Source: Bacteroidia bacterium | Lineage (GTDB): Bacteria > Bacteroidota > Bacteroidia > Bacteroidales > Prolixibacteraceae | Reading direction: 5' to 3' | Assembly: GCA_026391295.1 (NCBI GenBank) | Contig: JAPLDS010000024.1 | Location: 45,784 to 84,815, forward strand | Length of the DNA stretch: 39,032 nt | In this document: in pieces, positions 32,470-35,537 of the stretch | Layout of the letters: the number at the start of each line of letters is the position of its first letter | Numbering within the stretch: the first letter of the stretch is position 1 | The notes under the pieces: model-generated | What the model was told of the DNA's origin: nothing | Seen by the model: only the letters and a program-made list of their open reading frames with translations | Database searches by the model: none | Program-made: the position numbers and the translations under genes

Positions 32470-33633
32470 ATGGTAAAAATATTAGTCATAGACGATGAAC
32501 GAAGCATTCGAAACACCTTAAAAGATATATTAGGCTTTGAAGGGTATAGTGTTGAAGTGACGGAGGATGGGCTTTTGGGATTAGAGTTAATTAAAAATAC
32601 CGATTTCGATCTTGTGCTTTGTGATATTAAAATGCCACAAATGGACGGGATAGAGGTTTTAGAAAAAATTCTTGAAATTAAACCGGAGACAACCGTTGTG
32701 ATGATCTCTGGACATGGGAATATTGACACAGCTGTTGAAGCCATTAAGAAAGGAGCCTTTGATTTCATCGTCAAGCCACTCGATCTAAATCGACTACTGA
32801 TCACAATTCGCAATGCTGGAAACAAGTCCCAGCTAGTCAAAGAGACTATTACATTAAAGCAGAAGGTTAAAAAACAATACGAAATCATTGGACAGTCGCC
32901 ACTTATTAAATCGGTCATTGAAATGACGGATCGTGTTGCACCGACTGACGCCAAAGTTTTAATCACAGGTCCAAACGGGACAGGAAAAGAATTAGTTGCT
33001 AGGCGACTGCATGAAAAATCATTACGGTCAGATGCGCCATTTATAGAGGTCAATTGTGCTGCAATACCCTCAGAGCTTATTGAGAGTGAACTTTTCGGAC
33101 ATGAAAAAGGGGCATTCACATCGGCCATAAAGCAGCGCAAAGGAAAATTTGAGCAGGCGGATGGGGGAACATTATTTTTAGATGAGATTGGGGATATGAG
33201 TTATTCTGCACAATCAAAAGTCTTAAGAGCGTTACAAGAACACGTGATCACCCGCGTAGGAAGTGATACTGCCATTAAAGTTAACGTTCGTGTCATCGCT
33301 GCAACCAACAAAGACCTAAGCTTAGAGATTAAGAATGGTACGTTTCGAGAAGATTTATTTCACCGGCTAAGTGTGATTCTAATCAATGTACCATCACTAG
33401 AAAGTCGAAAAGAAGACATACCCCTTCTGACTAATTATTTCATTGAGTTAATTTGCAAAGAATACGGACAACCACCTTTGGCCATTGATGACAAAGCTAT
33501 TGAAGTCTTACAAAGCTACGATTGGTCGGGAAACATCCGGGAGTTACGCAATGTTGTAGAGCGACTAATCATCTTATGCACAAAGAAAATAACGAGCGAA
33601 GATGTTAGGCGTTATGTCTCGCCAGGAAAATAG
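32470..33633 (+). CDS. NtrC-family response regulator without DNA-binding domain
   Basis: Residues about 1-120 form a receiver domain with acidic pocket DDE (9-11), phosphoacceptor Asp52 and Lys102. Residues about 140-375 are a sigma-54-activator AAA+ domain: Walker A GPNGTGKE (167-174), GTLFLDEIGDMS Walker B (about 233-244), the sensor region, and SGNIRELRNVVERL. Two oddities stand out. The sigma-54-contacting loop reads GAFTSA (214-219), not GAFTGA. The protein ends at residue 387, right after the AAA+ helical lid (TSEDVRRYVSPGK), so the usual Fis-type HTH is missing. It may activate from solution or act through a partner. No sensor kinase is adjacent. Confidence 0.9.
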   Translation: MVKILVIDDERSIRNTLKDILGFEGYSVEVTEDGLLGLELIKNTDFDLVLCDIKMPQMDGIEVLEKILEIKPETTVVMISGHGNIDTAVEAIKKGAFDFIVKPLDLNRLLITIRNAGNKSQLVKETITLKQKVKKQYEIIGQSPLIKSVIEMTDRVAPTDAKVLITGPNGTGKELVARRLHEKSLRSDAPFIEVNCAAIPSELIESELFGHEKGAFTSAIKQRKGKFEQADGGTLFLDEIGDMSYSAQSKVLRALQEHVITRVGSDTAIKVNVRVIAATNKDLSLEIKNGTFREDLFHRLSVILINVPSLESRKEDIPLLTNYFIELICKEYGQPPLAIDDKAIEVLQSYDWSGNIRELRNVVERLIILCTKKITSEDVRRYVSPGK

Positions 33634-33938
33634 TCTCCTTAACCTTTAAAATATCTAACTTAAATCAAGGAGTTGGATTACATTTATTTCTTGACTTTTA
33701 CTGAAATTGAAAAAATTACGCGTTTTACATTCTGCAATTTCTATCCCGGCCCGCTCCATTTTCAGGTCTTTTCAAATTGAATTTTACATATTAAAGTAAA
33801 GTTTAAAATTAAAATTTCGCCAAACAACAAATAAAATACTATCAATCAACAATTTAAACAAAAATAGGTTATAAACAATTGTTCATAATCTAAGTTAATA
33901 GGTGGTTGATTCATAGTTGATACAATTCATTGAAAAAA
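33634..33938. other. AT-rich intergenic stretch, no gene seen
   Basis: There is no convincing ORF on either strand. It contains the perfect palindrome AACAATTGTT within ATAAACAATTGTTCATAAT (near 33870-33890). It also has AATCAAC/GTTGATT arms flanking that palindrome upstream of the ncRNA promoter, which could be a regulator site. Confidence 0.5.
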
Positions 33939-33971
33939 GTTGCAAACCCACTATCGAAAGGTGTATATTTG
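33939..33971 (+). promoter_or_regulatory. Promoter of the large ncRNA
   Basis: GTTG (33939-33942), a 21-nt spacer and TATATTTG (33964-33971) fit the Bacteroidota promoter pattern with an exact TAnnTTTG. The transcript should start near 33978. Confidence 0.7.
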
Positions 33972-33977
33972 ATATAT

Positions 33978-34528
33978 CAAGTAAGCGATAACAGGTTACT
34001 CTGAATTTAGTGGATGCGAGGAGAGACTCTTAGGTGAGTAAGGAGCCGTATCAATCAAACCTTCGGGATTGCGCAAAGGAAGAGTCAGAGGTTGCAAATT
34101 GGGAGTAATCCTAACGAGCAGTCATCCAGAAATTAACGCTAGTCGTTCATTAAAAGGTTGAGTTTAGGTCTAGAAGAGAGAAGAAGCGTAAGTTTCTGAT
34201 GGAAGCTAGGGGACAGGAGAGTTGTGAGACTGGATAGTTCCATGCCGCAGAAGGATGAATCGCAAGATTCAAACCAAGAGGTAGATGACTAAGCACTCGG
34301 TCCGGGAAGGCTAACCGAAAGGAAAGTCGAAGGGACAGCTGAAGAGTGGCACTGTAAAAGGTTCTATTCTAAAGCCAAGGGCTGTACAATGAATCATCTG
34401 ATTGCGTAAGCAGTACGAAGATGAAATTGCAGCCAAACATGACAACCGTAGCTTGACGCCAATAGTGAAGTAATTTACTAAAGACGAAATGGGAACAACT
34501 TGCAAGAGTGGTTCCCATTTGTGTTTTT
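33978..34528 (+). ncRNA. Large structured non-coding RNA, about 550 nt, family not recognised
   Basis: The region between its own promoter and terminator has no long ORF, higher GC than the flanks and many stable hairpins. They are: AGTAA/TTACT (33980-34000); GACTCTT/AAGAGTC (34025-34031 with 34080-34086), enclosing a CC-UUCG-GG hairpin (34060-34067) and CAAT/ATTG; AGAAGC-GUAA-GTTTCT (34182-34197); ATGGAA-CTA/TAG-TTCCAT (34199-34208 with 34235-34243); TGAATC-GCAA-GATTCA (34256-34271); and a three-tier stem GGCTG..CAAT/ATTGCAGCC (34380-34434) holding CATCT/AGATG and TTGC-GUAA-GCAG. Three GNRA loops plus one UUCG loop suggest a compact tertiary fold, as in large ribozymes. I see no RNase P, tmRNA, SRP or 6S signatures. 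It lies between the NtrC-like gene and convergent nfo. Function is unknown. Confidence 0.8.
34487..34528 (+). terminator. Terminator of the large ncRNA
   Basis: AAATGGGAAC (34487-34496) pairs perfectly with GTTCCCATTT (34511-34520). The loop itself contains CTTGCAAG, and GTGTTTTT follows. It lies between the ncRNA and the end of convergent nfo and may also stop nfo transcripts. Confidence 0.85.
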
Positions 34529-34570
34529 AGGCCTTGCCAAAAATACGCAAGCCTCCTCCTTAAATCTTTC

Positions 34571-35413
34571 CTAACGAACTAACGCATATAACATGCGAAT
34601 CTCTTCAGACCAGATAGTGTCGTCTGGAGTCTCCATGATGATAGGCATATTGTCAAAATGAGGATCATTCATCAAGACCTCAAATAGCTCCATACCAATA
34701 AAACCTTGACCAATGCTATGGTGCCTGTCCACGCGCGTGGCTAACTCTTTCTTCGAATCATTTAAATGAATCGCTTTAAGGTACTCCCAACCAATGACAG
34801 AACTAAACTTATCAAAAGTCTGATTAAAAGTCTCTTTAGTTCGCAAATCATAACCAGCTGTAAAGGTATGACAGGTATCTATGCAAACGCCTACTCGCGA
34901 CTTATCATCTACTTGACTAATAATCTCTGCTATCTGCTCAAATTCATGACCCATATTAGACCCCTGCCCTGCCGTATTCTCGATAACAGCAGTAACACCT
35001 TGAGTCGCTTCTAAGGCAATGTTAATTGACTCCGCAATACGCTTCAAACACTCAGAATGTGATATTTTATTAAGATGACTTCCAGGATGAAAATTCAAGA
35101 GTTTAAGTCCTAATTGCTGACAACGCAACATCTCGTCATTAAAAGCTTCCCGCGACTTTTCAAGACCTTCGGTTTCTGGATGCCCTAGATTAATCAAATA
35201 ACTATCATGTGGCATAATCATCTCAGGCAAGAAACCATTGTCGGCGCAGTTTTTCTTAAAAGCTGCAATACTACTTTGAGTGAGCGGTGCAGCACTCCAT
35301 TGTTTTTGATTTTTTGTAAAAAAAGCAAAAGCATTTGCTCCGATTAACTTTGCATTTAAAGGGGCATTCTCAACTCCACCACCAGCACTTACATGAGCTC
35401 CAATATATTTCAT
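34571..35413 (-). CDS. nfo: Endonuclease IV (AP endonuclease)
   Basis: This trinuclear-zinc TIM-barrel enzyme cleaves DNA 5' of abasic sites in base excision repair. I chose ATG at 35413 ([18 protein letters not shown]); a frame extended by three codons starts with TTG. Metal-ligand motifs are [17 protein letters not shown] (His), [13 protein letters not shown] (Glu), [15 protein letters not shown] (Asp, His), [17 protein letters not shown] (Asp, His), and IIMETPDD (Glu). The length of 280 aa is normal. It is a single gene, convergent with the ncRNA; its upstream gap to the EamA gene is 124 nt. Confidence 0.96.
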
Positions 35414-35537
35414 TCCGAACAAATTAATTACACGTTACTATCAATCTTTGTTTACACCACCCTAAGCAGATCGGCTCTACAAATATGCTAAATAAAATCG
35501 ATTTTCGATCCCAAAATAGGAACAGAACAAACTTAAA

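Follow-up and report, generated by a model that had tools for sequence, protein, structure and literature searches.

OLE, GOLLD and ROOL are large, highly structured bacterial RNAs whose functions are described as poorly understood, GOLLD and ROOL being presented in the same account as prophage or phage encoded (PMC12286853). The raiA-motif RNA (ModT) of Bacillota and Actinomycetota is reported as a stand-alone, broadly conserved structured ncRNA that acts in trans on growth transitions (PMC11706538); its length is given as 205 nt (PMC12286853). In Caulobacter, the ncRNA CcnA is reported to be tied to cell-cycle regulators (PMC8959179). E. coli DnaA is reported to prefer, in vivo, boxes paired 2 bp apart (PMC11317965).

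We analysed a window of 39,032 nucleotides from a Prolixibacteraceae genome (order Bacteroidales), in which a first-pass annotation had proposed an undescribed class of structured RNA. The proposal stands up well: no Rfam match was obtained, and conservation and covariation are strong. We consider it almost certain that the locus belongs to a real, conserved class of structured ncRNAs, which, as far as sequence can tell, would be a new one among the large structured RNAs of bacteria. Like raiA/ModT, it appears as a stand-alone structured RNA of broad conservation (PMC11706538), but it is found in another phylum, has no Rfam match, exceeds the 205 nt reported for raiA (PMC12286853), varies in size and is accompanied by an array of a palindrome and half-sites. 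With OLE, GOLLD and ROOL it shares large size and high structure (PMC12286853), whereas it has no Rfam match, is chromosomal with clade-specific neighbours and has no plasmid or phage match. CcnA offers a functional parallel to a replication-linked reading, with no homology implied (PMC8959179).

The RNA gene and its immediate surroundings

Positions 33978-34528 of the window read as a stand-alone ncRNA gene with its own predicted promoter and intrinsic terminator. The features of the locus are as follows.

32470-33633, plus strand: upstream neighbour, a sigma-54-type response regulator gene (Pfam agrees)
33940-33944, plus strand: -33 promoter element TTGCA, conserved in the genus alignment
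33964-33971, plus strand: -7 promoter element TATATTTG, read in the sequence and in the genus alignment
33978-34528, plus strand: ncRNA gene of about 550 nt, its start placed from the promoter, its end from the terminator, with homologue alignments
34483-34528, plus strand: terminator hairpin, whose stem and UUUGUGUUUU tail keep their sequence in 23 copies from five genera
34571-35422, minus strand: downstream neighbour, a gene of the AP-endonuclease-2 fold, called nfo in the first-pass annotation (Pfam agrees)

The -7 promoter consensus of Bacteroidota is TAnnTTTG. Such an element had been claimed for this unit and is found as TATATTTG, with TTGCA upstream at a spacing of 19 nt. The perfect 10-bp terminator stem, AAATGGGAAC/GTTCCCATTT within 34483-34525, is present as described, and the GNRA loops and the C(UUCG)G hairpin were found in the sequence. 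The unit was also said to lack a long ORF; the only listed ORF of at least 60 aa within it is 64 aa long and antisense. Across 81 homologues comparable in length, the longest ORF on the sense strand had a median of 51 aa (maximum 138) against 45 aa (maximum 104) after shuffling. These ORFs barely exceed shuffled lengths and their start positions are scattered across the homologues, and a conserved ORF was thus rejected.

We then compared the locus with known RNA families. Rfam 15 at gathering thresholds gave zero matches for the window and none for 20 homologue loci, which leaves the proposed novelty intact; a permissive search of 33850-34620 returned just two chance-level matches (E 7.6 and 9.8). 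This covers OLE, GOLLD, ROOL, raiA, 6S, group II introns and the other Rfam 15 families at gathering score, in the window and the 20 homologue loci, and the Rfam 15 ribozyme models in the window. RNase P RNA (RF00010) has no match in the window and sits elsewhere in the same genome (G000:C36, 231.7 bits), in agreement with its dismissal at first reading. The same holds for tmRNA, ruled out as ARAGORN found neither tRNA nor tmRNA genes in the window and Rfam had no match there. For Y RNA/YrlA, the partner Ro protein (TROVE, PF05731) was detected in 0 of 6 RNA-carrying genomes, which disfavours this assignment. A cis-regulatory leader or riboswitch was rejected because the unit has its own terminator, the downstream gene is antisense and the neighbours change between clades. 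Our literature search found no report of this RNA among the records listed, and the main text of two ncRNA surveys, of 26 and 50 genomes, holds no Bacteroid-, Prolixibacter or Draconibacterium term.

Fold and covariation

The predicted fold has an energy of -161.3 kcal/mol against a mean of -136.1 for shuffled sequences (z = -3.98), none of 100 shuffles being as low. RNAalifold applied to 23 aligned copies proposed 81 pairs, 45 of them with compensatory changes compared with 19.5 in shuffled alignments. In this alignment 96.5% of cells were paired (90.0% when shuffled), a value reached by 0 of 500 shuffles, and six slid versions were also nowhere near the observed pairing. We extended this to 81 nonredundant copies picked by length class (the family supplied 57, the order search 8 and titled contigs 16; mean identity 51%): 26 of 97 pairs were significant at E<0.05 under a tree-based null with column rates preserved, and when the whole matrix was ranked, pairs of the structure made up most of the top 20. 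The covariation by which the first-pass annotation would recognise a functional RNA is thus seen in both sets. A harsher phylogenetic null that equalises column rates left 1 pair at E<=0.2, this null having almost no power.

Support is strongest for the closing helix, the 5′ domain, the helices within 34300-34375 and the terminator hairpin. The parts of the fold are:

33977-33982, plus strand: closing helix P1, 5′ strand UCAAGU, pairing with 34451-34456 (covariation)
33983-33995, plus strand: internal-loop strand AAGCGAUAACAGG, nearly invariant, its last two letters opening P2 (alignments)
33994-34085, plus strand: 5′ domain with the 5′ strand of P2, then P3, P4, P5 and P6 with a UUCG loop (covariation)
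34300-34375, plus strand: core helices P10/P10a, with a GAAA loop, and P11 (covariation)
34441-34450, plus strand: internal-loop strand GACAACCGUA, nearly invariant, with order consensus AAUAACNGUA (alignments)
34451-34456, plus strand: closing helix P1, 3′ strand GCUUGA (covariation)

Of 182 sequences (not redundancy-filtered), 92-100% form each of the six P1 pairs; the 182 are those with both end motifs among 203 candidate full-length copies, some of which are second matches within one locus. P1 occurs in the forms UCAGGU/RCCUGA, UCAAGU/RCUUGA, CCAAGU/RCUUGG, UCAGAC/GUCUGG, CCGAGU/GCUCGG and GCAGGU/GCCUGC. Between P1 and P2 lies an asymmetric internal loop whose two strands, AGNGAUAA and AAUAACNGUA, are nearly invariant. 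The terminator hairpin is likewise kept in sequence, GGGAAC/GUUCCC followed by the UUUGUGUUUU tail, which is unusual for a plain terminator.

A nested three-tier stem at 34380-34434 had been singled out as especially convincing. Its outer GGCUG/CAGCC pairing is mostly kept but shows no significant covariation, and the region is variable; its inner G(GUAA)C hairpin, invariant in 18 relatives, is gapped in the other 5 of 23 and does not bear out that judgement. The end motifs lie between about 200 and about 1030 nt apart, the commonest distances being 200-300 and 400-500 nt; the smallest value (153-155 nt) belongs to a single copy (L108) with an imperfect 3′ motif. This wide range indicates an interior that is expandable around a constant core. 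Three otherwise normal members (L016 in G020, L135 and L265 in G091) have their motifs about 1010-1030 nt apart and hence a very large interior. Seven copies of one short-form clade (L124, L140, L149, L157, L158, L163 and L175) carry UUGUUCUUUGAGAUGU in the first 45 nt of the RNA, which resembles a boxA antitermination element.

Distribution and copy number

A 611-base query matched 21 of 61 relatives, some through short ends only. Homologues were present in 15 of the 18 genomes of the genus, the host included, with 67-96% sequence identity; two of the three genomes without a match are incomplete (64% and 68%) and the third is 91% complete. One copy was detected in the host genome, similarly to its nearest relatives G006 and G016. 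Neighbouring copies were observed in three congeners (G001, G008 and G015), with a spacing of about 0.9-1.0 kb from start to start in G001 and G008. Several copies run off contig ends, as expected if tandem arrays break assembly.

R1, a sequence-only profile built from 21 sequences and covering the 3′ half of the RNA, gave matches in 116 of the 140 genomes of the host family, representing 17 of 23 genera; of the 103 high-quality genomes, 90 matched. A single copy is usual in the large genus g11, and two to four copies are usual in g18. Across the order Bacteroidales, R1 matched 48 of 295 sampled genomes and a 5′ pattern 43 of 295, against 2 genomes for the reversed control; 18 of 20 fetched 5′-pattern loci also had the 3′ motif. 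The union of both searches comprises 58 of the 295 genomes, from 40 genera and 30 families, and the 237 negatives are to be read knowing that strict filters and exact patterns miss members. The first-pass annotation had spoken of an RNA class in this lineage: the class holds, its confinement to the lineage does not, since it is spread over the order.

We also scanned a titled collection of 84,980 species, which yielded at least 116 stretches. Among the matches listed, 88 had the 3′ motif within 1.3 kb and 28 lacked it; 11 of the latter have <700 nt downstream, and the 17 with >=700 nt are probably mostly chance. The 3′ motif occurred in 17 of 2000 random stretches. Titles with both motifs, again among the matches listed, named Bacteroidales or Bacteroidetes in nearly all cases; a few MAGs bore the label Chlorobiota or Sphingobacteriia. 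By record titles, the cultivable Draconibacterium and Maribellus carry the RNA in their genomes.

Gene neighbours are clade-specific, for example rplQ and eno, a biotin-carboxylase-like gene or the response regulator (names from translations), so that the RNA is not the leader of one gene. No match was obtained by blastn in collections of plasmid and phage records, and 5 pattern matches in viral contigs had neither the 3′ motif nor the palindrome described below; a phage or plasmid origin is accordingly disfavoured. The gene is chromosomal and apparently vertically inherited.

The upstream array, its possible regulator and alternative readings

Upstream of the promoter we observed an array that is absent from the first-pass annotation and that, with the consensus palindrome TTATnAACAATTGTTnATAA, is shared by most lineages. 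In the window it consists of:

33869-33888, no strand assigned: 20-bp palindrome TTATAAACAATTGTTCATAA, two inverted DnaA-box-like 9-mers 2 bp apart, kept at most Bacteroidales loci
33894-33925, plus strand: three direct half-sites GTTAATAGG, GTTGATTC and GTTGATACA, with G at +25, +36 and +47 from the palindrome start (11-bp phasing)

Among 187 loci with 150 nt upstream, TTATnAACAATTGTTnATAA was found in 168 at <=5 mismatches and in 134 at <=2, the remaining 19 having no palindrome within 5 mismatches. Beyond the palindrome, the consensus of 108 nonredundant loci shows GTTnATA at +25 and GTKnATA at +36, to which the window adds the half-site at +47. The distance from the palindrome to the promoter, its end point set immediately after the -7 element, was 93-95 nt in 94 of the 108 loci and 104-106 nt, one 11-bp unit more, in 9. 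The motif TTATNNACA occurred 245 times compared with 8.6 in shuffled sequence (138 nonredundant loci). Within 1 mismatch, the palindrome was present once per genome, at the RNA, in 11 of 12 genomes; the host is among them, and its reversed control gave 0 matches. The twelfth, G061, has three palindromes, two of which lie upstream of its two detected RNA copies. The third (G061:C1:78694-78713) is exact, lies 1.7 kb from an RNA-preceding one, has no R1-detected copy behind it and possibly marks a diverged tandem copy.

A palindrome and half-sites on one face of the DNA, leading to the promoter in 11-bp steps, are what a cooperatively binding regulator needs, and we think it very probable that the RNA is controlled through this phased array. 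The boxes mostly read TTATNAACA and, like the DnaA box TTATNCACA, leave the fifth base unspecified, but they usually have A instead of C at position 6 of that box, and the canonical TTWTNCACA occurred in 16 of 153 loci. An initiator-like regulator is therefore plausible, with DnaA as one candidate and its binding at candidate level. The last two consensus half-sites are direct repeats 2 bp apart, with an 11-bp period, and thus resemble the box pairs preferred by E. coli DnaA, whereas the two boxes of the palindrome, also 2 bp apart, are inverted (PMC11317965). We tentatively take DnaA or an initiator-like protein as the leading candidate.

We further looked for the palindrome across the class, where 57 of 395 genomes matched; about 15 matched the reversed control, so that some of the 57 are chance. 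The 14 other Bacteroidales genomes of this sample had no palindrome. Outside Bacteroidales, 29 palindrome loci were read, 14 translated and 7 proteins checked in Pfam, and at many of the 29 the palindrome precedes unrelated genes. It lies upstream of dnaB at four loci (L336, L345, L346 and L347) in two families outside the order and upstream of gyrB at one (L335); in those of these dnaB and gyrB loci that were read, no obvious half-sites were seen beside it. At three loci of Flavobacteria-like genomes (L333 and L337 on the plus strand, L339 on the minus strand), palindrome, half-sites and a TAnnTTTn-like promoter precede a noncoding unit upstream of icd, the isocitrate dehydrogenase gene. This unit, of about 400-450 nt within the roughly 650 nt that come after position 1500 in the oriented locus, follows rplS in L333 and L337, has a shared terminator sequence and a ACGTTCTTT box, and looks unrelated to the Bacteroidales RNA. 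It has no Rfam match of its own, two of the three loci carrying the Rfam L19-Flavobacteria leader.

We regard as the probable, and best, explanation a chromosomal stand-alone gene for a large, structured, trans-acting RNA of a new Bacteroidales class, under an initiator-like regulator. The class and the fold are well supported; the identity of the regulator and the function are what we infer. A protein would bind the array cooperatively on one DNA face and would couple synthesis of the RNA to growth or replication. The transcript would then act in trans through the P1-P2 loop, serving as a stable RNP or scaffold and probably involving a protein, the lineage-variable interior being tolerated. 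That it works as a trans-acting RNP has, in our estimate, an even chance. A wider and somewhat unlikely version is a replication-control circuit of Bacteroidota, in which an initiator-type protein on the near-unique array would switch on the RNA, and maybe dnaB or gyrB in other orders, the RNA feeding back on replication or growth and the Flavobacteria-like genomes having an analogue upstream of icd.

Other readings of the locus fare less well. An ornate RNA like OLE, GOLLD or ROOL, which would form a homo-oligomer or cage from RNA alone and whose level the array would merely set, is unlikely: length, stable tetraloops and complex covarying fold resemble those classes (PMC12286853), but Rfam gave no match to them, plasmid and phage collections and viral contigs yielded no convincing member, and the size-variable interior speaks against one fixed quaternary lattice. 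We hold it distinctly unlikely that the RNA is an sRNA-type regulator pairing with mRNAs through its conserved loops as seeds. Its nearly invariant single strands and its own promoter and terminator would suit this role; yet the two strands face each other in the internal loop by the closing helix, an arrangement more in keeping with a structural or protein-binding core, and the molecule is far larger than required.

The sites datA and DARS serve DnaA titration or reactivation. By analogy, the DNA array might be the functional element and the RNA secondary, as the array varies less than the RNA interior and has a near-unique palindrome. This is very unlikely given that the RNA body covaries and is conserved through the terminator, and that array and promoter keep a fixed helical phase to each other. 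A replication origin with an origin transcript is extremely improbable, for although the DnaA-box-like array lies beside an AT-rich stretch (25-26% GC in 200-nt windows of 33700-33999), the RNA is away from the negative-to-positive GC-skew switch in the single-contig relatives G098, G142, G094 and G143 (sampled coarsely, in 10-20 kb windows), G127 and G124 being too noisy to place it.

A terminus location, considered from two genomes, was dropped after four more. By local GC skew the RNA is on the lagging strand, head-on to replication, in all six of these genomes, which are related and include the two with noisy skew and so do not count as six independent cases. A search for direct box pairs in 9 genomes gave four sites, two without a further box nearby and two inside a second box cluster, seen in two relatives from one genus (L417 and L418). 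This cluster has 6-7 DnaA-box-like sites over about 300 nt from position 1490, some at 32-33-bp spacing, and in L417 it follows a response-regulator-like gene. It seemed origin-like at first; denser GC-skew sampling places it inside a positive-skew stretch, off the switch, and it thus does not identify the array boxes as origin-type.

Returning to the reading of a trans-acting RNA under an initiator-like regulator, an RNA of such size, with a covarying fold and carried by most genomes of its family, is in our view unlikely to be dispensable. The few large bacterial RNAs without a known function would gain a class from Bacteroidota, and here a testable clue is at hand: the palindrome of its promoter array precedes dnaB and gyrB, among others, in other orders of the class. 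If the regulator were indeed DnaA, replication control would offer a way into the role of large bacterial RNAs, with Draconibacterium and Maribellus among the cultivable hosts.
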